32,651 nt of DNA from a virus: positions 1-32,651 of IMG/VR virus record IMGVR_UViG_3300048836_000525; one strand, given 5' to 3'. Every line of letters starts with the position of its first letter. The first letter of the stretch is position 1. The notes below the pieces were generated by a model. It was not told where the DNA came from, made no database searches, and saw only the letters and a list, made by a program, of their open reading frames with translations. Below are positions 117-26,321 of this stretch, in pieces. Made by a program: the position numbers and the translations under genes.

Positions 117-189
117 TCCCGAGTAGCTCAGTTGGTAGAGCAGCTGACTGTTAATCAGCGGGTCACAGGTTCGAGTCCTGTCTCGGGAG
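117..189 (+). tRNA. tRNA-Asn (anticodon GUU)
   Basis: A complete cloverleaf reads directly from the sequence. The acceptor stem is TCCCGAG (117-123) with CTCGGGA (182-188), and the discriminator base is G189. The D arm is AGCTCAGTTGGTAGAGC. The anticodon stem GCTGA/TCAGC encloses the loop CTGTTAA with anticodon GTT at 150-152. The T arm carries GGTTCGAGTCC. No 3' CCA is encoded. The gene is intact although the integrase lies 85 bases downstream, as expected when a phage restores the 3' half of its target tRNA on integration. Confidence 0.97.
150..189. other. Presumed attachment site core (anticodon loop to 3' end of tRNA-Asn)
   Basis: Tyrosine integrases often recombine within the 3' half of a tRNA gene, and here the integrase reads toward the tRNA 3' end and stops just after it. 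The core is therefore placed between the anticodon loop and the 3' end. The matching copy should lie beyond the right edge, so the exact core cannot be fixed from this window. This is inference from context. Confidence 0.5.
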
Positions 190-219
190 CTCTTACGAGT
201 CAATGAGTTAGCCGCACGC

Positions 220-273: not shown

Positions 274-1314
274 TCAGTCCGCCTTTCCGGGGTGAATCCC
301 GAAGCCAGCCAGGGTGTCCCGCAACGCGGCCCGATCGCCGGGCAGGTACGGGTCAATCTCGTGTGAGGTGTAGAGGTCGGTCACGCTGCGCATCCCGTGA
401 CCGAGGTAGAGGCGGATCCGACTCGGCGGAATCCGCGCGAGCTCGCAGAGGTGCGCGAAACCCCGCCGGAGTCCGTGGGGCGTGCAGTTCGGTGCGTCGA
501 TCACGGCGCGGATCGTCTCGGACCAGCGCTTCACCGACAGGCCCGGCGGCACGGGCGCGCCCACCAGTGGTACGACGCGGTGCCGCCCCCGACGCTTCAA
601 GCCGCGGATCTCGACGCGGTCCGCGTGCACGACGAAGCCATCCTCCCAGTATTCCTTTCGGCCCATCCCCGTCAGGTACATGGACCAGAGCTCGGCCGCA
701 CGCGCCGGGGGCAGCATCCCCGCCCACGTGGCCACCTCGGTCGGCCGCGGTGCGCTGATGGACGCCGAGCGCCGCACGGTGAGCGTGGGGACGGCTTGCA
801 CCTCGACGTACAGGCGATGGGCGCGCGTGAGCGTGTCGCGGACGAACGCCTGGGCGTGCGCGCGCGCGAGGTTCACGGTGCGAGGGTGATGGGCATAGCT
901 CTTCCGCAGCGCAAGCAGTGCGGTAGCCAGATGCGCGACAAGCACTGGAGCGGGTGCCACGGTGAGCAGCAGCGCGAGCGTCCGACGGGCAGCACGGCGG
1001 TGAGCCTCCCCAGTGACGCCCTCGAGCCACGATCGCCATGCCTCGTCCAATGGCACGAGCAGCTCGGCCGACGGGAGTCGATGCACCTCGCGGCGACGCC
1101 AGTACGGAAAGACCTCCAGCGGTGTGAGTACGCCGTCGCGGATCGCCTCCAGTATGTCGGCGTGTCCGCTCTCCCAGAGGTCGAGTAGCATCGCATCGAG
1201 CTGGTGGAAGCGCCGCAGCTCGCGCGTGCCCGACGCGACGCGAATGCGGATGCGCCCACCGAACACCCGGCGGAGCTCCAGCGTGCCACGGCCCGATCCC
1301 GAACGGCTCGGCAT
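274..1314 (-). CDS. int: Tyrosine recombinase (phage integrase)
   Basis: This protein of 346 residues should carry out site-specific integration and, with a directionality factor, excision of the prophage. The C-terminal catalytic domain shows H280-G-L-R283, then L-G-H306 and tyrosine Y315 nine residues later. This is the canonical H-x-x-R, H, Y spacing of tyrosine recombinases. The first catalytic arginine is probably in the TGMGRKEYW segment near residue 219, a less usual form of this box. The N-terminal half is the core-binding and arm-binding part. The ATG overlaps the previous stop by one base (TGATG), which implies translational coupling. It is the last gene of the early operon and sits next to tRNA-Asn, its probable target. 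Confidence 0.93.
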   Translation of the reverse strand: MPSRSGSGRGTLELRRVFGGRIRIRVASGTRELRRFHQLDAMLLDLWESGHADILEAIRDGVLTPLEVFPYWRRREVHRLPSAELLVPLDEAWRSWLEGVTGEAHRRAARRTLALLLTVAPAPVLVAHLATALLALRKSYAHHPRTVNLARAHAQAFVRDTLTRAHRLYVEVQAVPTLTVRRSASISAPRPTEVATWAGMLPPARAAELWSMYLTGMGRKEYWEDGFVVHADRVEIRGLKRRGRHRVVPLVGAPVPPGLSVKRWSETIRAVIDAPNCTPHGLRRGFAHLCELARIPPSRIRLYLGHGMRSVTDLYTSHEIDPYLPGDRAALRDTLAGFGIHPGKAD

Positions 1315-2995: not shown

Positions 2996-3248
2996 CGTCG
3001 GCCTCCGGTGGTGCGTCGGCCGCAATGACTGGGAGGCCGAGGAAGGTCGAAGGCTCCAGCGTGCCGGTGCACTCGTGCAGCACCACGCGCGGGACGTAGA
3101 GCACCCCGCGCCCATCGATCATCAGCTCGCTCCGCCGCGCCGTCGGGCGCACTTCGACGGGGGCGATGCCATGCACCCGCTTGTGCTCTGCGACCAGCGT
3201 CCGAATCTCTCGGAAGACCGGCAGCTCCTGCGTCGTATCGTCAGACAT
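2985..3248 (-). CDS. Small early phage protein, unknown function
   Basis: This protein has 87 residues and starts MSDDTTQELPVFREI. A helix (about 8-24) leads into short predicted strands (VEVRPT, ELMIDGRGVLYVPRVVL) and an acidic C-terminus (EADDAD). It may be a small nucleic-acid- or protein-binding fold, but no motif identifies it. The ATG overlaps the end of the phospholipase gene (ATGTCTGA), so the two are translationally coupled. The longer frame upstream is a shadow inside the phospholipase gene. Confidence 0.65.
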   Translation of the reverse strand: MSDDTTQELPVFREIRTLVAEHKRVHGIAPVEVRPTARRSELMIDGRGVLYVPRVVLHECTGTLEPSTFLGLPVIAADAPPEADDAD

Positions 3249-4119
3249 GGGGCACACTCGTCGGTGTCGCGTAGCCCAGATCCAGCATCCGCTGGATCTT
3301 CTCGCGCGTGAAGTCGAGCGCGTCGCCGAAGTCTTCGGGTGGGGCGACGACCGTGGACCGGATCGTCGCGTAGCCAGGGCGGTGATTCTTTGCGCGCAGG
3401 CTCGCGAGGTCCTCCTGGTAGACCTCGTTGAGCGTGATCGCCAACGAGCGCTTGGCGACATCCAGCGTGCGGCGCCATGGCCCCCTCGCTGGTGCGAGCG
3501 TCAACGGTGACGCGAGGTAGACCCAGAGCTCCTTCTCAGGGTCCGGGTGATCCTTCAGCCAGGTGACCGCCTCCTTGAGTGGGGTCTGGTCGCGCAGCCC
3601 ACCGTCGATGTAGTGCCACCCGGCGATCGGTACCGGCGGGAAGTACACCGGCATGCTCGCGCTCGCGAGGATCGCGGCGTGCACGTACCGGCTGCTCCCG
3701 TCGAAGCGCGCGTACTCTCCCGACTCCAGCTCGACGGTGCCGCACGAGAAGTGTGCGCCGGCCGCGAGGCGCATCGGGTCGATGTGCTGGCGGATCAGGG
3801 CGTCCAGCGGCGCGGGATCGAACAGGGCTGCGCCTCGGACGGCGCGCCACGCCATCGCGGGCCACCAGCGCGAGCCGCGGTAGATGTCTCCATTCCCCTG
3901 GATGCGTGCATAGATCTTCGTGGCGCGCCCGAGGAGTCGGTACTGCCCGCCCCGGGTCCGGCTCTGGGCACACAGCGCCGCCGTGAGGTTGCCAGTCGAG
4001 ACGCCGAACCACGCATCCCCATGCAGATCGGGGTGATCGTCGAAGGCGCGGCGGAGGGCGCCGACTTGGAAGGCACCCTTCACACCCCCGCCGCTCAGGA
4101 CCATCGCACGGACCGTCAT
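3241..4119 (-). CDS. Patatin-like phospholipase
   Basis: This 292-residue protein would be a lipid acyl hydrolase with a Ser-Asp dyad. The oxyanion-hole motif GGGVKG is at residues 10-15, the nucleophile elbow G39-V-S41-T-G43 follows, and the catalytic aspartate motif D172-G-G is in YIDGGLRDQTP. The conserved SMPVYFPPV segment precedes it, as in other patatins. All key residues are intact. No signal peptide is seen, so it should act in the cytosol on the inner membrane or on lipid droplets. It lies in the phage early operon with a good Shine-Dalgarno (GGAAGGAG) and overlaps both neighbours by 4-8 bases, so it is a true operon member. Its biological role is unknown; early membrane damage, lipid remodelling or defence against a competing phage are all possible. 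Confidence 0.9.
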   Translation of the reverse strand: MTVRAMVLSGGGVKGAFQVGALRRAFDDHPDLHGDAWFGVSTGNLTAALCAQSRTRGGQYRLLGRATKIYARIQGNGDIYRGSRWWPAMAWRAVRGAALFDPAPLDALIRQHIDPMRLAAGAHFSCGTVELESGEYARFDGSSRYVHAAILASASMPVYFPPVPIAGWHYIDGGLRDQTPLKEAVTWLKDHPDPEKELWVYLASPLTLAPARGPWRRTLDVAKRSLAITLNEVYQEDLASLRAKNHRPGYATIRSTVVAPPEDFGDALDFTREKIQRMLDLGYATPTSVPHV

Positions 4120-5178: not shown

Positions 5179-5257
5179 GAGGACCTCCCGGGCGGATGAC
5201 GCCGATCCACTGGTGCGGGGCGCCGGCGGGGCACGTGACATAGATGGTCTGGGTCAC
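5162..5257 (-). CDS. Very small ORF, GTG start, 31 residues
   Basis: A 31-residue frame begins at a GTG that overlaps the stop of the upstream gene by four bases (GTGA). It reads VTQTIYVTCPAGAPHQWIGV and ends in a short basic tail. The hydrophobic/aromatic pattern and the Cys suggest a small beta hairpin. Support is the exact GTGA coupling and the absence of any other gene to fill this stretch. It is too short for firm assignment. Confidence 0.45.
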   Translation of the reverse strand: MTQTIYVTCPAGAPHQWIGVIRPGGPRADRA

Positions 5258-5457
5258 GGGGTCGCCCCTTCCGGTGGCGGTGCGGGCGCTTCGAGATCCA
5301 CCCCGGCCGCGAGCGCGACCCGACGCAGGAACGCCAGGTATTCGTCGGTCTTCGCGAGGTCGGCCGCGAGACGCGCACGGCGATCGACCACCTCCGCGTG
5401 CGCCTCGGGCAGGGTGTCGTGCAGGAACCGGGGGAGGTTGCCGGTCGCGGTGGTCAC
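5254..5457 (-). CDS. Small helical early protein, GTG start
   Basis: This 67-residue protein is mainly one long amphipathic helix (FLHDTLPEAHAEVVDRRARL and on to about residue 50), followed by a Pro-rich tail (EAPAPPPEGATP). The GTG start overlaps the stop of the putative annealing-protein gene (CGTGACC), so the two are coupled. It might be an accessory to the recombination pair; this is inferred from position only. Confidence 0.6.
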   Translation of the reverse strand: MTTATGNLPRFLHDTLPEAHAEVVDRRARLAADLAKTDEYLAFLRRVALAAGVDLEAPAPPPEGATP

Positions 5458-6491
5458 GGGGCGTCACCGTCCTCGGCCGCGAGCTGACGATCGAGCTCGA
5501 GGTCCTCGTCGGTCGGCTGCAACGCTTCGGGGACCTGCGCGAAGGACGCGGCGTCGGTCGAGGACGGCGCCGGCTTCTCCGTCTCTGCCTGCTGCACCTT
5601 CTTCGCGACGCGCTCCTTGAGTCCCGACGTGCCGCGCGCGCTCTTCGTGGTGGCAGCGCCCTCGCCGTGCTTCGCCTCCATGATCTCGACCCACCGCGCC
5701 TCGCCGTCCTTGAGCGCGGCGTACACGGTGCGGAGCTCGAGGAGTTCTGGCTGCGTCATCTGGTCGAGCGGGTGGCCGAGGTACTCCACGATCTGATCCG
5801 GCCCGACCCCCTGCGCGAAGAACGCATCAACCAGCTTCTTGCGTGCGGTGGTCGGGTCCTTGGCGTCCTCGTCCCGGAGCGTGGCGACGACCTGCTCCAT
5901 CGCCTCCTCCAGGATGTCCGCCGGGAGGATGCGCAGGATGCCATTCCGGATGTGCTTCGAGATCGCCGCCTGCTGCTTCGTGAGGATCTCGTCCTCGGTA
6001 GCTTCGACCAGGTACGTGACCTCACCCTGGCTGTTGGTCCGCGAGGAGATGGCCACCTGCCCGCGCCGCAGACTCTTCCGCTCGACGACCTTCTGCAGGG
6101 CGATGTCGGCCGAGTAGGAGAGGTTGCTCTCGAGGTCCGTGACGGTGACGCGCACGACGCGCCGCGTCTCGTCGTCGAAGAGCGTCGGCGTCTCGACGAG
6201 CAGGTTGCCGAGTGCGCGGCCCGCCTCCTCGGCGAAGCGGATCGACGCACCGACCACGCGCCCGTTGCCGACCGGCTTCGCGTAGCGCGCCGTCGAGGCG
6301 AACCCCGGACGCTTCGCGGCCTGCATCAGTCGCACACGCACGGTGTCGATGTTGCGCGGCCGGAAGAGCGCCATCTGGTAGCGGGCCTGCACGGCGGCAC
6401 GAGCTTGCGCCGCGGCCGCCGTCACCGCCGTCTCGCCGCTCGGCGCAAGCTCGGTGTCCTCGCCGAGGTGCTCCATGGCGGTGCCGGTCAT
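5454..6491 (-). CDS. Putative single-strand annealing / recombination protein
   Basis: This protein has 345 residues. The core (about residues 30-245) includes RYQMALFRPRN, then KPVGNGRVVGASIRFAEEAG followed by GNLLVET, VTVTDLESNLS, a VERK basic turn, RTNSQGEVTYLV, and SKHIRNGILRILP. This order of a conserved strand-helix core with GxxIRFAEEA and a DLESN motif is known to me from uncharacterised phage proteins that neighbour YqaJ nucleases. It is not an obvious RecT, Red-beta, Erf, Rad52 or Sak4 sequence. The C-terminal 100 residues are linker-like and end in an acidic tail (DEDLELDRQLAAEDGDAP), as in several annealing proteins. It overlaps the YqaJ gene by four bases. Function is inferred from context. 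Confidence 0.65.
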   Translation of the reverse strand: MTGTAMEHLGEDTELAPSGETAVTAAAAQARAAVQARYQMALFRPRNIDTVRVRLMQAAKRPGFASTARYAKPVGNGRVVGASIRFAEEAGRALGNLLVETPTLFDDETRRVVRVTVTDLESNLSYSADIALQKVVERKSLRRGQVAISSRTNSQGEVTYLVEATEDEILTKQQAAISKHIRNGILRILPADILEEAMEQVVATLRDEDAKDPTTARKKLVDAFFAQGVGPDQIVEYLGHPLDQMTQPELLELRTVYAALKDGEARWVEIMEAKHGEGAATTKSARGTSGLKERVAKKVQQAETEKPAPSSTDAASFAQVPEALQPTDEDLELDRQLAAEDGDAP

Positions 6492-7516
6492 GCGGCACCA
6501 CCCTGCGCAGCCGTGAACCGGAACGGCCGCGAACCGGCCTTGATCGTGGTGTGCGCGGCGATCAGCTCGGCAGTCGCGCCGGCTTCCTTCGCCACGGCCT
6601 TCCAGTCGGTCGCCTGCCCCTCGCGGTTCTGCTTCCACGAGATCTTGCCCCACGGCCCGACGGCGCCGGCCCGTTCACCGATCCGCGCCTTGATGCGTGC
6701 TTCGATCTCGTCCGCCTGCTCCTGCGCGACGGCCAGATCGGCGCGCGCCTGGACGAGGGCGACGGCGAGGTCGTTGACGTCCGGATCGTTCTCGAGCAGG
6801 TCCTCACGCGCCTGCCGGAGCATCTTCCCGATCAGCGCGTTGTCTGCCGCCATCGGCTCCGGACGGATACCTGCCTCGACGCCGAGCCAGAAGACGCCGA
6901 GCTCGGGAAGGAAGGTGTCGAGCAGTTCCTGATCACGACGGAGCGTGTACGTGCGGAAGTCGTTGCCACCGATCAGGACCGCGACGTCCCACCGATCGAG
7001 CCCGGTGACATGCATCGCATAGTGGCATTGCAGGGCGTAGGCGTCAGGCACCTGATCGGTGCCGTCCTCGCCCCAGAGGTGCGCGACCGCGCGATCGGCC
7101 GTCTTGCACTCGAGGCCATAGAGCCAGGAGGCCGGGTTCTCGCCATTCGCGCTGGCGAGATGGACCATCCCGTCGGGAGAGCAGACCTGCCAGTCGATGG
7201 ACGGATGCTGAATGCGGCCGACCACCGAGCCCGGCACGACATCGAGGCCGCCGGGCGCGGCAATCTTCTCGACGTAGGCCCGACGGACGGCGTCCTCAAG
7301 CCGGGTACCCCATTCGGTGAAGGCGGAACCCTCGAACTCCGGGACCTCGCCGCGCTTGCGGAGGTGCACCACCAGCGGAGTGGCGTACTTGGAGAGGCCG
7401 AGGACGGCGGCGATCTCGCTGGCACCAAGGAAGGCGCGGCGATCGCTGTCGAGGGGGAGCCGCCGGACGGCACGCCCGAGGGGCGCGTAGGCGGGGTGCA
7501 CTGCGGGTGACGTCAT
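6488..7516 (-). CDS. YqaJ-family phage recombinase exonuclease
   Basis: This 342-residue protein has the PD-(D/E)xK nuclease fold of the lambda Exo/YqaJ type. It would resect double-strand ends 5' to 3' to feed an annealing protein. The N-terminal LGASEIAAVLGLSKY (about 30-44) is the typical YqaJ opening. E74 in GTRLEDA, D115 in SPDGMV and E136-C-K138 form the metal site. Q163 in YALQCHYAMHVTG and the RDQEL region complete the family pattern. The C-terminal third is helical and may mediate oligomer or partner contact. A good GAGGAAAG Shine-Dalgarno precedes the ATG. It is paired with the putative annealing gene downstream. Confidence 0.93.
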   Translation of the reverse strand: MTSPAVHPAYAPLGRAVRRLPLDSDRRAFLGASEIAAVLGLSKYATPLVVHLRKRGEVPEFEGSAFTEWGTRLEDAVRRAYVEKIAAPGGLDVVPGSVVGRIQHPSIDWQVCSPDGMVHLASANGENPASWLYGLECKTADRAVAHLWGEDGTDQVPDAYALQCHYAMHVTGLDRWDVAVLIGGNDFRTYTLRRDQELLDTFLPELGVFWLGVEAGIRPEPMAADNALIGKMLRQAREDLLENDPDVNDLAVALVQARADLAVAQEQADEIEARIKARIGERAGAVGPWGKISWKQNREGQATDWKAVAKEAGATAELIAAHTTIKAGSRPFRFTAAQGGAA

Positions 7517-11305: not shown

Positions 11306-11538
11306 CCGACCTTCGTCTCCACGCGCACCATCCGCTCGCGGACGTCGGCCACGTCGTCTTCGACGCGGATGAACCGCGCCTGCACGTCGGCGTGGTGGGC
11401 ATCGATCTTCGTCTCGATGCGCTTGACCGTGGCACGCGTGCCGTTGAGGGCGGCCTTCACGCCGCCCCATGCCGCACCAGCGGTAAGCGCGGGGAGGATG
11501 ATGGTGACCAACACCTGCAACGTGGAAAGGTCCTGCAT
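11302..11538 (-). CDS. Small membrane / coiled-coil protein of the lysis region
   Basis: This 78-residue protein has one N-terminal membrane segment (LQVLVTIILPALTAGAAWGG) followed by a coiled coil (ATVKRIETKIDAHHADVQAR and on to VRVETKVG). Proteins of this plan often accompany phage holins as accessory or antiholin. The ATG overlaps the stop of the giant virion gene by one base. A GTG one codon upstream has a slightly better distance to GGAGG and may be used instead. Role is inferred. Confidence 0.65.
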   Translation of the reverse strand: MQDLSTLQVLVTIILPALTAGAAWGGVKAALNGTRATVKRIETKIDAHHADVQARFIRVEDDVADVRERMVRVETKVG

Positions 11539-14500
11539 CACGGACTGACCTCCGCTCGGCCGAGACCGAGCCGGGTGAAGTGACTCCGCGCGGCCTTGAC
11601 CGCGTCCTCGATCTGGGTGCGTTGCAACTCCTCGACCAGGCGCCGCCGCGCGGCCGATCCCGGCGGATACTCACTGGCCAGACGGGGGTCGGCGTCGAGT
11701 CCGGCATCGAGCTGTGCCGGAAGATCCGCGTACTCCGGTGACGATACGGAGGCCTCGACGACCGCGCGAAGGATCTGGCCCTCCTCACGCAGGCGCCGCT
11801 CGAACTGTTGCGGTGATTCGTCGCCCTGACGCTTGCGGCGCGTGATCGTGACGCCCAGCCGCTGCAACTCCGCGGCGATCGGGTCGTCGGCCGTCCGATC
11901 GCGACGACTGTTGGTGAAGTCCAGGAGCGCAGCGGTCGCGCCACCGTCGCGTGTGATCGGTTCGCCGAAGCGATCAATCTTCGCCGGCAGCGTCTTCGAG
12001 AGGCCCGGGATGCGGGCCGTCACGGCGTCCACCACGCCTTCCGTCTCCCGCTGCACTGGATCCACCGCGCGCGCGACGGCGCCGACCACCGATGGAACGG
12101 TCATGCCGGCCACGTTCTCGACGAACGACATCGCACCACGCGAGGGGTCGCGCACCGCATCGAGCGAACGATTCACGCCCTGGAGGAACGATTGCTCCAT
12201 CGCATACTTGCCGATGTCGCCAACCGCCTGCACACCGGCGAGTCCGGCGGCCGCGGTCGGGTCGAGCGGGTCGAGCTCCTCTCGCAACGGATCGAGGTTC
12301 TCGCGCAGGTGGTGCACCAGCGACGCCCCGATCGCCATCAGGTTGCCGAGCGGGCTGATCCGCTCCATGGAGTACCACCGATCGCCGAGTCGGACCGCGT
12401 TGGGGATCTTGCCCTCGGCGGCCCACTGGTCACGCGTGCGCTGATCGGTCGGGAAGGTGCCGGTCATCCGGTCCTTCGAGGCGAGCATCGCCCCTGCGAC
12501 AATGGCGGTGCTGGAGCCGACGACCGACCGCCCGAGGCGATCGGCAATGCGACGCTGCTCGGCCAGCGCTGGAGCGCCCTGCATGGCCTTCTCGACCAAC
12601 CGCCAGACATCCGGGATCGTGCCCAGCGCCCCGAGCGGTGAGTACTCGACCGTGCGACTGACCACGTTCGCGGGTGTCCGGACGAAGGGCATGAGGACCT
12701 CGCCCACTACGCGCCCAGTCGACCCACCACGGTCAGAGAGGACCCCCTTCGCGCGTGACCCGAGGTCCGCGAGGAGCCCGCGGTTCGTGAACGTGGCGAC
12801 CTCCGCGTCGGCCATTGCCTGGAGCACCATGTCATCGGTGACGGACTTCGCGCCTTGGCGCAGGTCAGAGAGGTCCGCCACGCGCGCGGCGAGTGCGTCA
12901 CCGGCGAGCCCCTCTCGCTTGGCAAGGAGCGTCGCCTGCTCGGTGAGGGAGCGCTGGAACGCGGCGCCATAGAAGATCCGGTCACCCGCCTGGAGCGCGC
13001 GGAAGACGGTCTTCGTGAACCCGTCGAGAATGGCGTTGTCGAAATTGGTCTCGCGCGAGAAGTCGTACTTCTGGAGCGCACCCTCGATCGGCACGCCTTG
13101 CATCACGGCACGCGCCTCCTCGAGCCCACGCTTCGCGCCCGCGACTGAGGCGCGGACCTGAGCGGCAGGGTCGAAGTGCTTCGTCGCTTGTCCAGTGACA
13201 CGCCCCTTGCTCACGACCTGCGCAAGTCGGATCAACATCCGGTCGACGAGCATCGCGGGCGCATCCTTGGCCGTCTCCAGCATGGCCATCGAGGTGTTGC
13301 CCACGAGGTTCGCCAAGTGCGTCTTCGGCGCCGTCAGGAGGGCGGCCTTGAGTAGCGTCGTGCCCTTCTCGGCGAGGGTGGCCTCCCGCATCGCGGCCAC
13401 CTGGCGCGCGAGGGCCTCCGCCTTCCCCTCGTTGGCGAGGCGCGTGATCGCCAGATGCTCGTCGCTGGTGAGCGGCCTTCCGGCCGTCTCCATCGCACGT
13501 GAGAGCCACACCGCAGGATCCGTGGTGCGCGCCGCGAGGATGCGCAACGCGGCCAGATCCCGTCCTGCCTCGGAGCGCTGCCGGATGAACATCCCGAGGT
13601 AGTGCTCCTGCTGCCGCTCCAGCGCCTGCACGCCGCGCTCGACGATCGCTCGCTGGTCCGGCGCGAGGGTGCGATCATCGAGTCGCTTGCGGCCCTCCGC
13701 GATGGCGTCCGCATTCGTCACGATGCGATTCCGCACCGCGAGCAACTTGTCGCGGCCGAGGCGCTCCCCGGCCTGCGGGGCGATGTCCTCCGGGTCGATG
13801 CCAAGCGAGCGCGCGATCACCGTCGCATGCGTCTCGCGCCCCTTCGGTGCAAGACCCTGAGTCGCGGCCACGCGCTGCACTTCCTCGCGCAGGACCGCCT
13901 CACCACTTGGGTCGAGCATCGCGCGGCGAAAGTTGAAGAACTCGTCCGCATCCACGTCGGCGGGATCGACGGCGCCGGACGTCGGCGTTGGCGCGGCCGG
14001 AGTCTCCGACGGCGGTTGCCAGCGACTCGGCGGCAGCTCGTAGGTGCGCGCCGGGGCAGCGACGGCAGCTCCGCGATCGGCGGGTCGACGCACCAGTTGA
14101 CCAGCAGCGTCCGCGCGATGGAGCAGTGCCTTGAGCCCCGCCTGTCCCAACGCGCCGGCGGTGAACCCGGTCGCGGCCCCACGGAGCGGGTTCTCCTCGT
14201 CGGCGACCATACCCGCCGTTGCACCGGCCGCACCACCGAGCAGGTTGTCGGAGGCTGCACGTACGGCGGCGGCCGGGAGCGGTGTCGGCAGGCCACCGAA
14301 CAGCAGATCCTCCGTGCCCTCGGGCGGGGGCGGGAGTTCGCGCGTGTACGGCCCACCACTCTCGCCAAAGGCATAGGTCGGCCGACGGCCGATCTCGTCC
14401 GGATCGAGCGCATTGTAGCGCCCAGCCAGCTCCGCTTCGACGCGTTCGAGCTGCCGGTACACCTGATTGGCGCCCGCCTTCGCGCGCCCAAAGCGTGCGC

Positions 14501-16574
14501 CCTTCGCGATCCCGCTCCGCTGCTCGGCAACGTCGTCGTCGTACCGGGTCCATGGCGTGATCGAGTTCTGCTCCTCGAGCGCGAGCGCCTGATACTCGTC
14601 GGCCAGGCGCCGGTGCATCGCCTCCAATTCCTCGGTGCCGGTGCGCCGAAACTTCGCGTCGCCGCCCTCCCACGAGACGCGTCCCGCACGCCGCACCTCG
14701 CGCACGGGCTGCACGTCCGGGAACATCAGATCGGCCGCATTGACGGCACCGGGTCCGGACCCTATCGTTTCGTCAGGTGAACGGCTCGTCGCTGGCCTCC
14801 CCGGCCCTCTTGCCGGATCGACGTCCAGGGAAGTCGTCTCACCGAGAGGTCGGCTCGTCGCGGGCGCCCCCGGCCGAACAGATGCCGGATCGGCCACCCG
14901 GGAAGTCGGCCCATCAACCTGACGCGTAACTCCAGGGACCCCCGGCAGATCCACAGCCGGATCGGTGACGGGAGCCGTCGGGGCCGGCCCCAGTGAGCCC
15001 TTCGAGGACTTGCTGGGGTCGTTGATGTCCAGGTCCCAGTAGAACACGCGTCGGGCCTGTGCGCCCTTCGGCGCTCGCTCCTCGGTCAGTGTCAGGCGGA
15101 ACTGCTGCGGCTTACCATCAACCACCGCATCAGCGGTGAAGTAGTGGTACGCCTCGACGTTCGTCGTCGACCCCTTCCCGCGAGGAGGAACATCCAGCAT
15201 CACGGGCTCGGCGTCCTCGATCAGCTCGTCGAGGACCCGCATCGCGGCCACCTTCTCGGGTGTGCTGCTGTGATGCCGCGCCTTTCCTATCGCCGACTTC
15301 CGGATCTCGGCCTTGAGGCCCGTCGCCTGATTGGTGAAGGCCTTTCCGCGTAGGGTCATCAAGTAGTCGCGCGCGCGATCGCGTGCCGCGGTCATGGCCT
15401 CTGGTGTATCCACCGGCCCGAACTCTGTGCGCGAGATCGTCCGACGATCGGGCGAGCTGCGCGGGAACGGGTCCGCAATCGGAGTCGGTTCCGGCGCGCG
15501 GGGTGCCTCGACCTCAGGGGCTGGCGCGCGACGCTGTGCGGCCTTGCCGACGTCCTGCTGAAACCGCGCGAGAGCATCGCGCACTGAGTTCGTCATCGGA
15601 TATCGCAGCTCGTCGGGATCCTTCGCCGTGCGGGCGGCGCGCAGCAGCTCCTCGTCGTGCGCCTTCGCGAGGTCGAACGTCTCGCGGCTCTTGGCCTGCG
15701 CTGCTTCGCGCACGGCATCGCGTCGAGCGAGCACGGCAGCCACCTGATCGGAGAGCCGCTCGTCACTCGCCGCACTGGCCTTCGCGGTGGACTCGGCGGC
15801 GTCGAGGCGATCCATGCCGCCTCGGATCGCGGGCGTCTGCTCACGCATGCCATCCACTCGCGCACGCTCACCCGTGAGCACATCCTCACGCAGTGCATCT
15901 GCACGAGCTCCGGCGCGCTTCGCACCGCGCTTGGCCAGCGCGCCCGCTGCCGCCTCCACCAAGCCGCCCGCGCCAGCGTCAAGCGCGAGCTCGAAGGCGA
16001 GTCGGCCGCCGGTATTGTCGGCCACCGCGCGCAGGCGATCACTATCGAGGAGCTCCGCGAAGTTCCCTGCGGCGGACTCCTCGCGCTGGATACCGGCCGC
16101 GAGATTGACTGGTGCATTGAGGACCAAATCGCGCGCGACCCGACCCTTTGCCGTCGCTGGTGCGGCGACCTTGGCAAGTCCTGGGAGCGACTTCGCGAAG
16201 GCGGGCAGCTTGGCGATGCGGTTCAGCAGACCACCAGGCGTGGCGAACTGCGCGGCGTCGCCAGCGAATCCGGCCGCACCCGCAGCCACCTTCCCGGCAG
16301 TGGTCTCGCTGTCGCGGTAGAAGGCATCGGCCTCGTCGCGGCTGGTGCGCAGGCGATCCGCGGTGCCATCGGCGCCGACGAGATCGGCGAGACCGATGGC
16401 CGTCCGGTATCCCGAGCGCGCGAGGCCCCGGCCGACACCGCCGAGCACGTCGCGCACCACGCCGCGGCGTGGCGGGGAGGGAGGAGGCGCGAACTCCGCC
16501 TCGAGGTCATCCCACGATGACGCCGGAGCGGAGAAGTCGCGTTCCAAGTCGGACCACGAGAGCGGGGTCGTCAC
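11538..16574 (-). CDS. Giant internal virion / polyvalent protein (1678 residues)
   Basis: This is the largest gene in the window. The N-terminus (1-250) has repeated short W-S/D-D-L-E segments and Ala/Gly-rich helices. Residues about 390-515 contain RDYLMTLRGKAFTNQATGL, an SAIGKARHHS basic patch and a beta section with FRLTLTEERA and YWDLDIND. This resembles the barnase/EndoU/ColicinE5-type (PBECR) nuclease domains of polyvalent proteins. A Pro-rich repeat linker (about 536-606) follows. The C-terminal half has LTAPKTHLANLVGN (1080-1093), a motif I recall from large polyvalent-protein domains, and a long Ala-rich helical end. I infer that it is packaged and injected with the DNA. A GTG start at 16574 is used, one base after the upstream stop. 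Confidence 0.75.
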   Translation of the reverse strand: MTTPLSWSDLERDFSAPASSWDDLEAEFAPPPSPPRRGVVRDVLGGVGRGLARSGYRTAIGLADLVGADGTADRLRTSRDEADAFYRDSETTAGKVAAGAAGFAGDAAQFATPGGLLNRIAKLPAFAKSLPGLAKVAAPATAKGRVARDLVLNAPVNLAAGIQREESAAGNFAELLDSDRLRAVADNTGGRLAFELALDAGAGGLVEAAAGALAKRGAKRAGARADALREDVLTGERARVDGMREQTPAIRGGMDRLDAAESTAKASAASDERLSDQVAAVLARRDAVREAAQAKSRETFDLAKAHDEELLRAARTAKDPDELRYPMTNSVRDALARFQQDVGKAAQRRAPAPEVEAPRAPEPTPIADPFPRSSPDRRTISRTEFGPVDTPEAMTAARDRARDYLMTLRGKAFTNQATGLKAEIRKSAIGKARHHSSTPEKVAAMRVLDELIEDAEPVMLDVPPRGKGSTTNVEAYHYFTADAVVDGKPQQFRLTLTEERAPKGAQARRVFYWDLDINDPSKSSKGSLGPAPTAPVTDPAVDLPGVPGVTRQVDGPTSRVADPASVRPGAPATSRPLGETTSLDVDPARGPGRPATSRSPDETIGSGPGAVNAADLMFPDVQPVREVRRAGRVSWEGGDAKFRRTGTEELEAMHRRLADEYQALALEEQNSITPWTRYDDDVAEQRSGIAKGARFGRAKAGANQVYRQLERVEAELAGRYNALDPDEIGRRPTYAFGESGGPYTRELPPPPEGTEDLLFGGLPTPLPAAAVRAASDNLLGGAAGATAGMVADEENPLRGAATGFTAGALGQAGLKALLHRADAAGQLVRRPADRGAAVAAPARTYELPPSRWQPPSETPAAPTPTSGAVDPADVDADEFFNFRRAMLDPSGEAVLREEVQRVAATQGLAPKGRETHATVIARSLGIDPEDIAPQAGERLGRDKLLAVRNRIVTNADAIAEGRKRLDDRTLAPDQRAIVERGVQALERQQEHYLGMFIRQRSEAGRDLAALRILAARTTDPAVWLSRAMETAGRPLTSDEHLAITRLANEGKAEALARQVAAMREATLAEKGTTLLKAALLTAPKTHLANLVGNTSMAMLETAKDAPAMLVDRMLIRLAQVVSKGRVTGQATKHFDPAAQVRASVAGAKRGLEEARAVMQGVPIEGALQKYDFSRETNFDNAILDGFTKTVFRALQAGDRIFYGAAFQRSLTEQATLLAKREGLAGDALAARVADLSDLRQGAKSVTDDMVLQAMADAEVATFTNRGLLADLGSRAKGVLSDRGGSTGRVVGEVLMPFVRTPANVVSRTVEYSPLGALGTIPDVWRLVEKAMQGAPALAEQRRIADRLGRSVVGSSTAIVAGAMLASKDRMTGTFPTDQRTRDQWAAEGKIPNAVRLGDRWYSMERISPLGNLMAIGASLVHHLRENLDPLREELDPLDPTAAAGLAGVQAVGDIGKYAMEQSFLQGVNRSLDAVRDPSRGAMSFVENVAGMTVPSVVGAVARAVDPVQRETEGVVDAVTARIPGLSKTLPAKIDRFGEPITRDGGATAALLDFTNSRRDRTADDPIAAELQRLGVTITRRKRQGDESPQQFERRLREEGQILRAVVEASVSSPEYADLPAQLDAGLDADPRLASEYPPGSAARRRLVEELQRTQIEDAVKAARSHFTRLGLGRAEVSP
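14757..14969 (-). repeat. Degenerate 25-residue Pro-rich tandem repeat in the giant protein
   Basis: Three imperfect in-frame units cover residues about 536-606 of the giant protein. Each carries D-P-A, P-G-x-P, T-S-R and then E-T or D-G. They read TDPAVDLPGVPGVTRQ, ADPASVRPGAPATSR and DPARGPGRPATSR in order. It looks like an extendable linker between the nuclease-like region and the C-terminal half. Confidence 0.5.
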
Positions 16575-16575
16575 G

Positions 16576-17469
16576 TCAGCGCACCTGCATCGCCTCGGCG
16601 CGCGCCTGCTCCGGGGGCACACCACGCGCTCGGAGCTCGCGATACTTGGCCGCTTGCGCCGGTGTCGGCGGAACGTCGAGTGCCGGAGCGGGGGCCGTAT
16701 CCCCGTTGACTGGAGTTCGGGCCGGCGGCGCACCATTGCGCAGCTGATCAATCAGGCTGGCAACAGGACTGCCTCCACCGGCTGTGCCCTTCGGCGGTGC
16801 GCGCAGCGGCGACCCATCCGGGCGAGTGAGCGGTTCGGGTTGGCCGTTGACGACACGCCAGTACGATCCGTCCTCGGCCTGAATGATCGAGCCCTGCGGC
16901 TCCGCGCGTGGCTGTGGCGGTGCGGCGAACCGTCGCTGCATGCGCTCGCGGTGCTCGATCTCTTCCAACGTACGCCGATGCTTGAGGTCGTCAGCTTCCG
17001 CGTCACGCGCCGCCTTCGCTGCCGCCGCACGGGCCGCCATCGCGTCCGGGGTGGCTTCGGTGTCGAGCAGCTTCCCCTCAACCCCGGGCACGGCGCGATG
17101 CCGGGCGATGTCACCCAGCGCACCAGAGGCGCGACTCAGCAGGTTCGTGCGGTGATCCTCGCCGAGGATCGGATCGAAGAGCGCCGAAGAAAGCTCGAGC
17201 CCGCCCATCGCCGCCCGCCCCTGAATGGGAGCGGCGTCGCGAAAGCCCGCGTCGTGCATCTGGATGGCACGATTCTCGGCGGCCACACGCGCAGCCTCTT
17301 CTGCCGCCGAGGCTGCACGTGCCTCGCCCGCCTTCGCCAGGTCGAGACGCTCCTGCTCCATGCCGAAGCGCTTCTCGCGTTCGGCGCGCTCTTCGTCGTC
17401 CTGGCGCCGTCGCACAGCACCGCGCGACCAGCCTGCGGCCATCGGGAGGATTGCGTCGATCAGACTCAC
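16576..17469 (-). CDS. Internal virion protein, coiled coil
   Basis: This protein has 297 residues. Residues about 20-75 form a charged coiled coil (RRRQDDEERAEREKRFGMEQ), and a second Ala/Glu-rich helix covers about 140-180. The Pro/Gly-rich C-terminal half contains short strands such as YWRVVNGQPEPL and ends in a helix with RARGVPPEQARAEAM. It sits between the hendecad-repeat protein and the giant polyvalent protein, and the three overlap or abut, so they probably form one internal ejection set. The GTG start overlaps the upstream stop (GTGA). No family name is given with confidence. Confidence 0.65.
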   Translation of the reverse strand: MSLIDAILPMAAGWSRGAVRRRQDDEERAEREKRFGMEQERLDLAKAGEARAASAAEEAARVAAENRAIQMHDAGFRDAAPIQGRAAMGGLELSSALFDPILGEDHRTNLLSRASGALGDIARHRAVPGVEGKLLDTEATPDAMAARAAAAKAARDAEADDLKHRRTLEEIEHRERMQRRFAAPPQPRAEPQGSIIQAEDGSYWRVVNGQPEPLTRPDGSPLRAPPKGTAGGGSPVASLIDQLRNGAPPARTPVNGDTAPAPALDVPPTPAQAAKYRELRARGVPPEQARAEAMQVR

Positions 17470-24504: not shown

Positions 24505-25869
24505 TCAGAGGCTCCGCAGTCGCACGGTGAACTGGCCGGGCACATCGCCGCGCCAGCAGAGGTGGTCATCGGGCGTCTGCCACAGAGTGAGACCAGTGGC
24601 GTCGGTCGTCGCGGCCCAAGAGGCTGACGCTCCGATTACCCCGACGCACTGTGTCGCCCCTGCCGGGCTGGTGAGGTTCGCCAGCACGAGGGGCGCTGGC
24701 GGAATGACGAGCGCGAGCAGCCGCGGCACGTCCACGAGGCCGCGCCCATAGTCGGGATCGGGGCCAGCCACGCCACCATCCACCGCACTCGCGTGCAACA
24801 GCGCCGTGATGCTGTCGAGGGTGAGCGCGGGCCGCAACTGCCGAAGCAATGCCACAACCCCGGCGACATGGGGGGATGCCATCGAGGTGCCGCTCTTGCT
24901 CCCCGTGCCGCCACTCGGCAACGAGGACACGATGCCAGAGCCGGGGGCCACGAGGTCGAGGTCGGGGTCGCGGTTGCTGTAGCTCGCGCGCCCGCCGCCG
25001 CTCGTCACCGCGCCCACGCTGATCACACGCGCGTAGCGCGCCGGGTAGAGCGCCGTCGCCCCGCCTGCATTGCCACTGGACGCCACCAGCACGCCCGCGG
25101 CGGCTTGGTACGCTTGGACGGTGAGCATCATGGCCCCCGTCGCCCCGCCACCAATCGAGGCGTTGACGACGAGGATGCCCTGCTCGCGTGCCCAGTTGAG
25201 CGCAGCGGCCTGCGTGCCACCCCATGCGAGGCAGTCGCCGTTGATGTCCTCGAACACCCGGAGCGCCACCAACTCGACGCCCGGTGCCACGCCATTGACG
25301 GACGATCCGACCGACCCCGCAACGTGCGTCCCATGCCCCTTGCATGGCGCGAACGTGTCGCCCCACGCCTCGGGGCCACCGTTGCTCGCCGGGAAGTTCC
25401 GGCCCGCGACCACGTTCAGGTGAGGGTGGTTCGGCATGATGCCGCTGTCCATGATGCCGACCTTGACGCCCGCGCCGGTGACGCCGCGATCCCACGCGCT
25501 GTCGGCGCCGATCATCGCGAGGTTCCACGGCAGCGCCATCGGCGCCGACAGATCACTCAGGCCAGCGAGCCCCGTGGAGTCAGGAATGGGGAGCGAGGTC
25601 GTCGCATCGTACTCCGCATACACTGGGGCGGGCCGCAGCGCGCGCAGCGAGTCGAGGAGTCCTGGGCGGCCCGTGAAGGCCAGAACGGGCCCGTCTCGGA
25701 ACGCCACCGCCATGCCCCAACGCTTCGCCGCCAGTAGCAGCTGCGCGGTGTCGCGCTCGGCCTCGAGCACGACCGCATAGCGCACCGTCGGCGCCTGGGC
25801 ATCCAACGCCGTGACCGCGCCGGCCCCGAGGAGGAGCAGCAGCGACGCGGCGAGACGATCGGCGCGCAT
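24505..25869 (-). CDS. Secreted subtilisin-like serine protease (S8 family)
   Basis: This 454-residue protein has an N-terminal signal peptide (MRADRLAASLLLLLGAGAVT, probably cut near ALDAQA) followed by a prodomain to about residue 105. The catalytic triad is complete: D141 in GIMDSG, H179 in GHGTHVAGSVG and S329 in GTSMASPHVAGV, with oxyanion N267 in SSGNAGG. After the protease (to about 385) is a short C-terminal beta domain with two Cys. The gene begins two bases after the lipoprotein-type ORF and lies inside the late structural operon next to the tail fibre. Export by the host signal peptide pathway is expected. Possible roles are processing of surface proteins at lysis or a host-fitness cargo; neither is shown. 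Confidence 0.93.
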   Translation of the reverse strand: MRADRLAASLLLLLGAGAVTALDAQAPTVRYAVVLEAERDTAQLLLAAKRWGMAVAFRDGPVLAFTGRPGLLDSLRALRPAPVYAEYDATTSLPIPDSTGLAGLSDLSAPMALPWNLAMIGADSAWDRGVTGAGVKVGIMDSGIMPNHPHLNVVAGRNFPASNGGPEAWGDTFAPCKGHGTHVAGSVGSSVNGVAPGVELVALRVFEDINGDCLAWGGTQAAALNWAREQGILVVNASIGGGATGAMMLTVQAYQAAAGVLVASSGNAGGATALYPARYARVISVGAVTSGGGRASYSNRDPDLDLVAPGSGIVSSLPSGGTGSKSGTSMASPHVAGVVALLRQLRPALTLDSITALLHASAVDGGVAGPDPDYGRGLVDVPRLLALVIPPAPLVLANLTSPAGATQCVGVIGASASWAATTDATGLTLWQTPDDHLCWRGDVPGQFTVRLRSL

Positions 25870-25871
25870 GG

Positions 25872-26321
25872 TCACGGGTCCGTGGGAACGACTGTGACCG
25901 TGATCGTCGTGATCGAGTCGACCACCGCGACAGGGGGAGCCTGATCGTTCCGCACGTACTTCCATCCCTTCGCCGCACTCCATGATGCGGAGGGAATGCC
26001 GGTCGGACTCAGATAGCGGAGGCGGGCGGTGTAGACGAGCGAGTCACCCACCTGCGGCTGCGGGGCCGACACCACGAAGGTGAGGCCATCGGGCACCGGG
26101 ATCGCTGTGCCGTTCGCGAAGACCTCCCAACGACAGTTCACCGCCCCGGGGACCAGCTTGCAGCCGCCCTGGCTACGGACGGCGGAGTCCGTCACGGAAG
26201 CCGTGACGACGATCGCATTCGGACTGGGTATCGGCATCGGCCGATCGACCGGTGGACGAGCAGCCGCACACGCGATGAGTGTGATGGCCGCGAGCAGGGG
26301 GAATGAGGATCGAAGGCCCAT
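25872..26321 (-). CDS. Nested alternative product: lipoprotein from internal start
   Basis: The internal ATG at 26321 is preceded by AAGGGA about seven bases upstream and opens a 149-residue lipoprotein with an intact signal and lipobox at C18. A lipoprotein signal buried at residue 109 of a membrane protein would be unusual, so separate translation from this site is a reasonable alternative to the fusion. The two readings are not exclusive. Confidence 0.5.
   Translation of the reverse strand: MGLRSSFPLLAAITLIACAAARPPVDRPMPIPSPNAIVVTASVTDSAVRSQGGCKLVPGAVNCRWEVFANGTAIPVPDGLTFVVSAPQPQVGDSLVYTARLRYLSPTGIPSASWSAAKGWKYVRNDQAPPVAVVDSITTITVTVVPTDP

Follow-up and report, generated by a model that had tools for sequence, protein, structure and literature searches.

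Candidate single-strand annealing proteins of the phrog_3657 family occupy the place of RecT beside phage exonucleases

Introduction

Single-strand annealing proteins (SSAPs) are drivers of phage mosaicism and the working part of recombineering tools. This study concerns a 32,651-nt virus record from IMG/VR (IMGVR_UViG_3300048836_000525, positions 1 to 32,651), referred to hereafter as the window. On its minus strand a nuclease gene is followed by a gene for a 345-residue protein, which a first-pass annotation made from the sequence put forward as an undescribed SSAP. Does this protein act as the annealing partner of the nuclease, and if so, is it a member of a known annealing family or the representative of another one?

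Results

The gene pair and its family

Both ORFs are real. In minus-strand order the nuclease gene comes first (6488..7516; 342 aa) and the SSAP candidate gene second (5454..6491; 345 aa), with the start and stop of the two overlapping by 4 bases, ATGA, at 6488..6491. The annotation of the first product as a clear YqaJ nuclease held. It is identified securely from its sequence as a YqaJ/RecE-like PD-(D/E)XK exonuclease, matching PF09588 (E=7.1e-24), phrog_434, a RecE-like exonuclease (E=1.9e-63), and TIGR03033 (E=7.7e-19, at the cut-off of that model). A 67-aa ORF without a Pfam match (5254-5457, minus strand) begins at the other end of the candidate gene, its start overlapping the stop of that gene by 4 bases; the two are possibly coupled in translation.

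The one PHROG match of the 345-aa protein was to phrog_3657 (E=6.7e-58 over residues 18-300), which is annotated "unknown function" in PHROGs v4 and which we take as the family of the window protein. Sequence searches of Pfam, NCBIfam and the PDB with this protein gave no match; weak matches such as NGO1151 and TPR_20 lay below curated cut-offs and were dropped. Nothing was found in the PDB with other single family proteins or with profiles. An identical copy of the protein is present on a second viral contig (L002). By tblastn, the window protein matched 29 phage records, a relative from viral contig L104 matched 85 and the core of the Mycobacterium phage Sparky member matched 79. Each of two profile scans of IMG/VR yielded at least 560 confirmed members, and bacterial genome contigs added 109. 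Phages of Proteobacteria, Firmicutes and Actinobacteria all include members. Among the hosts are Acinetobacter, Pseudomonas, Bordetella, Aeromonas, Vibrio, Bacillales, Lachnospiraceae, Mycobacterium, Gordonia, Rhodococcus and Streptomyces. One record, Dulem virus 31 (L018, PP511318.1; 35.8 kb), is assigned to Microviridae in GenBank but carries tailed-phage repressor, replisome organiser and exonuclease genes, and its placement is probably a taxonomy error.

Among 101 non-redundant members, the near-invariant residues are P45, R46, R61, A65, Y70, P73, G81, I84, R85, E88, N96, D119, E121, N123, R182, L186 and P190. Three of the motifs that had been quoted from the window protein therefore mark family-wide sites: GxSIRxAE (noted as GxxIRFAEEA), DLExN (noted as DLESN) and SKxxRNxxLR. 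The other, RTNSxG, is specific to the subgroup of the window protein, where it lies in an insertion around residues 134-165.

Comparison with known annealing families

Every one of nine diverse and three actinophage members matched phrog_3657, and none matched a Pfam SSAP profile. PF03837 (RecT/Red-beta) had no match in the window protein or in any of these members; PF04404 (Erf), PF04098 (Rad52/22), PF06378 (Sak3) and PF13479 (Sak4, a P-loop ATPase) had none in the window protein or in the nine. At the level of profiles, the protein is thus not RecT, Red-beta, Erf, Rad52 or Sak4, as had been proposed, and Sak3 can be added to that series. Profile-profile comparison (hhalign) with alignments of RecT, Red-beta, Sak and Erf returned probabilities below 2% (1.7% for RecT). 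The control comparison of RecT with Red-beta scored 99%, while Sak-Erf and RecT-Sak were missed; because hhalign also misses Sak-Erf, its negative result for the family is uninformative at superfamily depth.

Nuclease neighbourhood

Gene context was examined in 50 records drawn from across the family, 14 of them GenBank phage records. A PD-(D/E)XK exonuclease of the YqaJ, DUF3799 or another type adjoins the family gene in all 50. Pfam searches, used in place of a mixed-type nuclease HMM that detected only 173 of 259 loci, found YqaJ above the cut-off in 26 records and DUF3799 in 21. The remaining three have a sub-threshold DUF3799 (L016), an annotated PD-(D/E)XK gene (L013) and an adjacent ORF whose PD-(D/E)XK-like motif was judged by eye (L069). 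The nuclease ORF lay less than 100 nt from the family gene in 39 of the 47 cases in which it was located; in Touem01/Dolphis-like phages an SMC-like or AAA ATPase gene stands between them. The number of records with either nuclease, together with the short distances, excludes chance pairing, and the exonuclease/annealing-protein arrangement first suggested by the window locus holds across the sample. Pairing with a RecE/YqaJ/DUF3799-type exonuclease, a feature of RecT/Red-beta proteins, is present. The usual neighbours of recT in a published survey are YqaJ, DUF3799 and SMC/AAA genes; in Firmicutes, the gene next to erf, rad52 or sak3 is as a rule ssb, not an exonuclease (PMC8093625).

Profile searches detected RecT, Erf, Rad52 and Sak3 in none of the 50 records, and Sak4 above the cut-off in none, with only four sub-threshold fragments of the latter. 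Relatives of the DUF3799 nuclease of L104 are found beside an annotated RecT in PG1, PLE3, iLp84, LF1, phi5218 and ctekg1 and beside a phrog_3657-family protein in Lilo, CBP1, A403 and Dulem virus 31.

Exchange with RecT in near-identical operons

RecT genes were collected from 15 of the 41 bacterial genomes that also carry the family; their neighbours were compared and the DNA was then aligned. Scans that used E. coli RecT or lambda Bet as a single query recovered near-identical copies only and were unsuitable as profiles. Three operon pairs were found in which the flanks or nuclease are 85-93% identical and a RecT core is encoded in one operon and a family core in the other. The RecT operons of Metaclostridioides mangenotii (L511/L519) and the family operon of viral contig L104 are 90-92% identical in DNA upstream of the exchanged gene and 90-91% identical downstream. 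Two loci of the same strain, Clostridiaceae 1XD21-72 (L512 with RecT, L204 with the family gene), share 93% DNA identity that ends only a few bases short of the start codon and returns 47 bases ahead of both stop codons; among the flanking proteins, the ATPases are 94% identical and the nucleases 90%. In one Aeromonas enteropelogenes genome, the nucleases upstream of RecT (L509) and of the family gene (L253) are 85% identical, and the last 60 or so residues of the RecT and the family protein are clearly homologous (blastp E=8e-18).

Each of the three exchanged operons keeps the same nuclease, and each RecT shares a C-terminal tail (blastp E 1e-5 to 8e-18) but not a core with its family counterpart. 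The family proteins concerned belong to another subgroup, with about 22-25% identity to the window protein, and the swaps were not seen in the close lineage of the window. Interchange with a known SSAP, a feature of SSAPs as a functional class, takes the form of three independent natural operon exchanges with RecT, seen in genomic comparison only. Where nuclease and tail stay the same and the family core repeatedly takes the place of the RecT core, the simplest account is that the two cores are functionally equivalent.

Actinophage members and earlier names

In Mycobacterium phage Sparky gp57 and phiT45-1 gp49, a phrog_3657 core is followed by a tail with a match to the RecT-like annealing protein phrog (E=1.6e-17 and 1e-9, respectively). 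Both proteins, like Gordonia phage Twister6 gp57, are family members adjoining RecE/DUF3799 nucleases, and their depositors called them RecT or ssDNA binding protein, names that merge the new-family core and the RecT-like tail. Some actinophage members are called "putative RecT" or "RecT-like ssDNA binding protein" in GenBank, and Gordonia phage members "ssDNA binding protein". The RecT label on the Mycobacterium copies may be due to the match between their tails and the RecT-like annealing phrog. The known mycobacterial recombineering RecT comes from Che9c.

The description of the protein as an undescribed annealing protein therefore needs dividing. It stands for the core, which no database family and no SSAP survey that we located recognises as such, but less so for the function, since some actinophage copies were already labelled RecT or RecT-like. 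The phrog_3657 core is absent from the seven SSAP families listed in a 2021 survey of Firmicutes and phages (PMC8093625), and Firmicutes also contain members of the family. No prior paper on the family was found by number or by description among open-licence full texts. What is new is the core family, which is absent from Pfam and NCBIfam; SSAPs as a kind, and the functional guess of some depositors, were known. The candidacy itself gained support from the position in the annealing-protein slot, the swaps with RecT and the RecT-type tails on this core in Mycobacterium phages.

Predicted structure

AlphaFold2 models were obtained for the window protein and the L104 relative. The core reached a pLDDT of about 97, with blocks at 92-98, and the whole-model means were 85 and 87, respectively, the ends being disordered. 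In the window protein the well-modelled core comprises residues 18-282 (5646..6440, minus strand; pLDDT mostly 90-98). In both models, N-terminal helices lead into a beta hairpin and a helix; three long strands with a small hairpin, a long helix, more helices and a disordered tail follow. Model and alignment together place a predicted beta1-beta2 hairpin at residues 69-82 (6246..6287, minus strand), with conserved Y70, P73, G75 and G81; a predicted helix alpha2 at residues 84-94 (6210..6242, minus strand), with near-invariant I84, R85 and E88 in GxSIRxAE; and a predicted long helix alpha3 at residues 166-188 (5928..5996, minus strand), with invariant R182 in SKxxRNxxLR.

The core that Rad52 and LiRecT have in common is described as a beta1-beta2 hairpin, a three-stranded sheet (beta3-beta5) and a central pair of helices (PMC9772228). 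The order in our models, hairpin, alpha2, beta3-5 and alpha3, is that described for LiRecT and RAD52, and by this order the hairpin at residues 69-82 may be equated with theirs. The residues of LiRecT and RAD52 that contact ssDNA are located in alpha3, and R182 lies in the predicted helix that corresponds to it.

Foldseek searches of a viral library returned five best hits (E 1e-26 to 8e-10) that we read as family members. The next were Erf (E=1.9e-3, prob 0.94) and Rad52 (E=1.2e-2, prob 0.95), with low TM-scores, and nine of the 12 named non-self entries among the best 50 viral hits were Erf, Rad52 or SSAP. Neither model had a significant Foldseek hit in the PDB; the top rows there (an H. pylori nucleotidyltransferase, porphobilinogen deaminase and relaxases) had no significant E-value and were dismissed as chance. 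The structure-prediction check proposed with the first-pass annotation thus returned the Rad52/RecT element order and weak viral Erf/Rad52 hits, but no confident match to a solved structure, and this combination makes the fold claim probable, not proven. The family probably forms a diverged lineage within the Rad52/Erf/RecT superfamily. It is unlikely that the core is instead an independently evolved annealing fold outside the Rad52 superfamily, exchanged freely with RecT cores while a common portable docking tail is kept.

The family resembles RecT/Red-beta (PF03837; Rac RecT, lambda Bet, LiRecT) in its slot beside a RecE/YqaJ/DUF3799 nuclease, in common tails, in predicted order of core elements and in mutual replacement in near-identical operons. 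It differs in that the cores have no detectable sequence relation and the conserved motifs are not the same. The Erf/Rad52/Sak3 superfamily supplies the best named non-self viral Foldseek hits and has a similar, Rad52-type order of elements, whereas the family has no match to PF04404, PF04098 or PF06378.

The C-terminal tail

Residues 291-345 (5457..5621, minus strand) form a tail that is disordered in the model and acidic in composition. The acidic character attributed to it at first reading was confirmed, there being 10 D/E and 2 K/R in the last 40 residues. Across the family the tail is weakly conserved and, in the models, disordered; in relatives, the segment at this position is one that is common to RecT proteins. 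Of 259 members, 146 have a net acidic stretch as their final nine residues, and 34 combine three or more acidic residues with an aromatic one close to the terminus, a combination seen in 16 of 1135 other ORFs from the same loci. These acidic-aromatic ends (DNDVF, EDDVF, DNDMFG and DSDMFA in L007, L008, L009, L014, L045, L061 and others) resemble the C-terminal tip of SSB; the window protein is acidic too but has no aromatic end. The segment of about 60 residues common to the two Aeromonas proteins covers residues 311-373 or so of the L253 product, and the shared RecT tail had no sequence match in the PDB.

Discussion

In our judgement the 345-aa protein is very probably the annealing partner of the nuclease in a two-component phage recombinase, and phrog_3657 a distinct family in the RecT slot. 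From its sequences and gene contexts, the family is best read as a set of unrecognised SSAPs that would be functional equivalents of RecT. On the model of established exonuclease/annealase pairs, the YqaJ nuclease would resect a double-strand end 5' to 3' and the annealing protein would bind the exposed 3' strand as an oligomer, holding it in a groove formed by alpha2, alpha3 and the beta hairpin. The bound strand could then pair with a complementary single strand, in phage-phage or phage-prophage recombination or at a lagging-strand template. We infer that partners, the nuclease or host SSB for example, dock on the acidic tail, a portable segment through whose contacts the strand might be handed over.

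The constant adjacency of family gene and nuclease would also be seen if the protein were an accessory of the nuclease or protected DNA ends, as a Gam-like protein or a loading or processivity factor that accompanies the exonuclease without annealing DNA, and recT modules do hold non-annealing accessory genes such as DUF1351 (PMC8093625). Such an accessory would be expected alongside RecT, yet the family core replaces the RecT core with the RecT tail kept, and another SSAP is found in 0 of 50 records; we regard this explanation as very unlikely. The exchanges also fit a very diverged member of RecT (PF03837), as do the shared slot, nucleases and tails and the "RecT" labels on actinophage copies. 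No PF03837 match, however, turned up either in the family or among the 50 records, hhalign gives 1.7% for the family and RecT against 99% for RecT and Red-beta, the named proteins nearest to it in Foldseek are Erf and Rad52 and not RecT, and the labels are consistent with tail homology plus a RecE neighbour. We consider membership in RecT proper improbable.

The acidic tips, including the 34 of 259 that carry an SSB-like tip with a nearby aromatic, and the GenBank label "ssDNA binding protein" on Gordonia phage members would suit a Gp2.5/SSB-kind protein that guards ssDNA and anneals only secondarily. The predicted fold (hairpin, helix, three strands, helix) is not an OB fold, separate ssb genes are annotated in some family-carrying genomes, and the family protein replaces RecT, all of which makes a guarding protein of this kind extremely unlikely.

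If the family, which is widespread in elements of Bacillus, Clostridia, Acinetobacter, Pseudomonas, Mycobacterium and Gordonia, does consist of RecT equivalents, it would supply the partner that many phage nucleases seem to lack, and would offer new recombineering candidates for hosts in which RecT performs poorly. The exchange of whole cores with retention of the tails suggests that the tail is a portable module on which partners dock.

Other features of the window

A tRNA-Asn gene (117-190, plus strand) adjoins an ORF (274-1314, minus strand) that reads like a tyrosine recombinase and for which a Pfam search gave nothing at E<=0.01; an integrated prophage probably has its left attachment end here. 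The early region carries a patatin-like phospholipase gene (3241-4119, minus strand; PF01734, E=4e-25), an unusual cargo for a phage. A 1737-aa protein (11538-16751, minus strand) has the large polyvalent protein-associated domain LPD3, and a subtilisin-family serine protease gene (24505-25983, minus strand; PF00082, E=3e-46) lies amid the structural genes.
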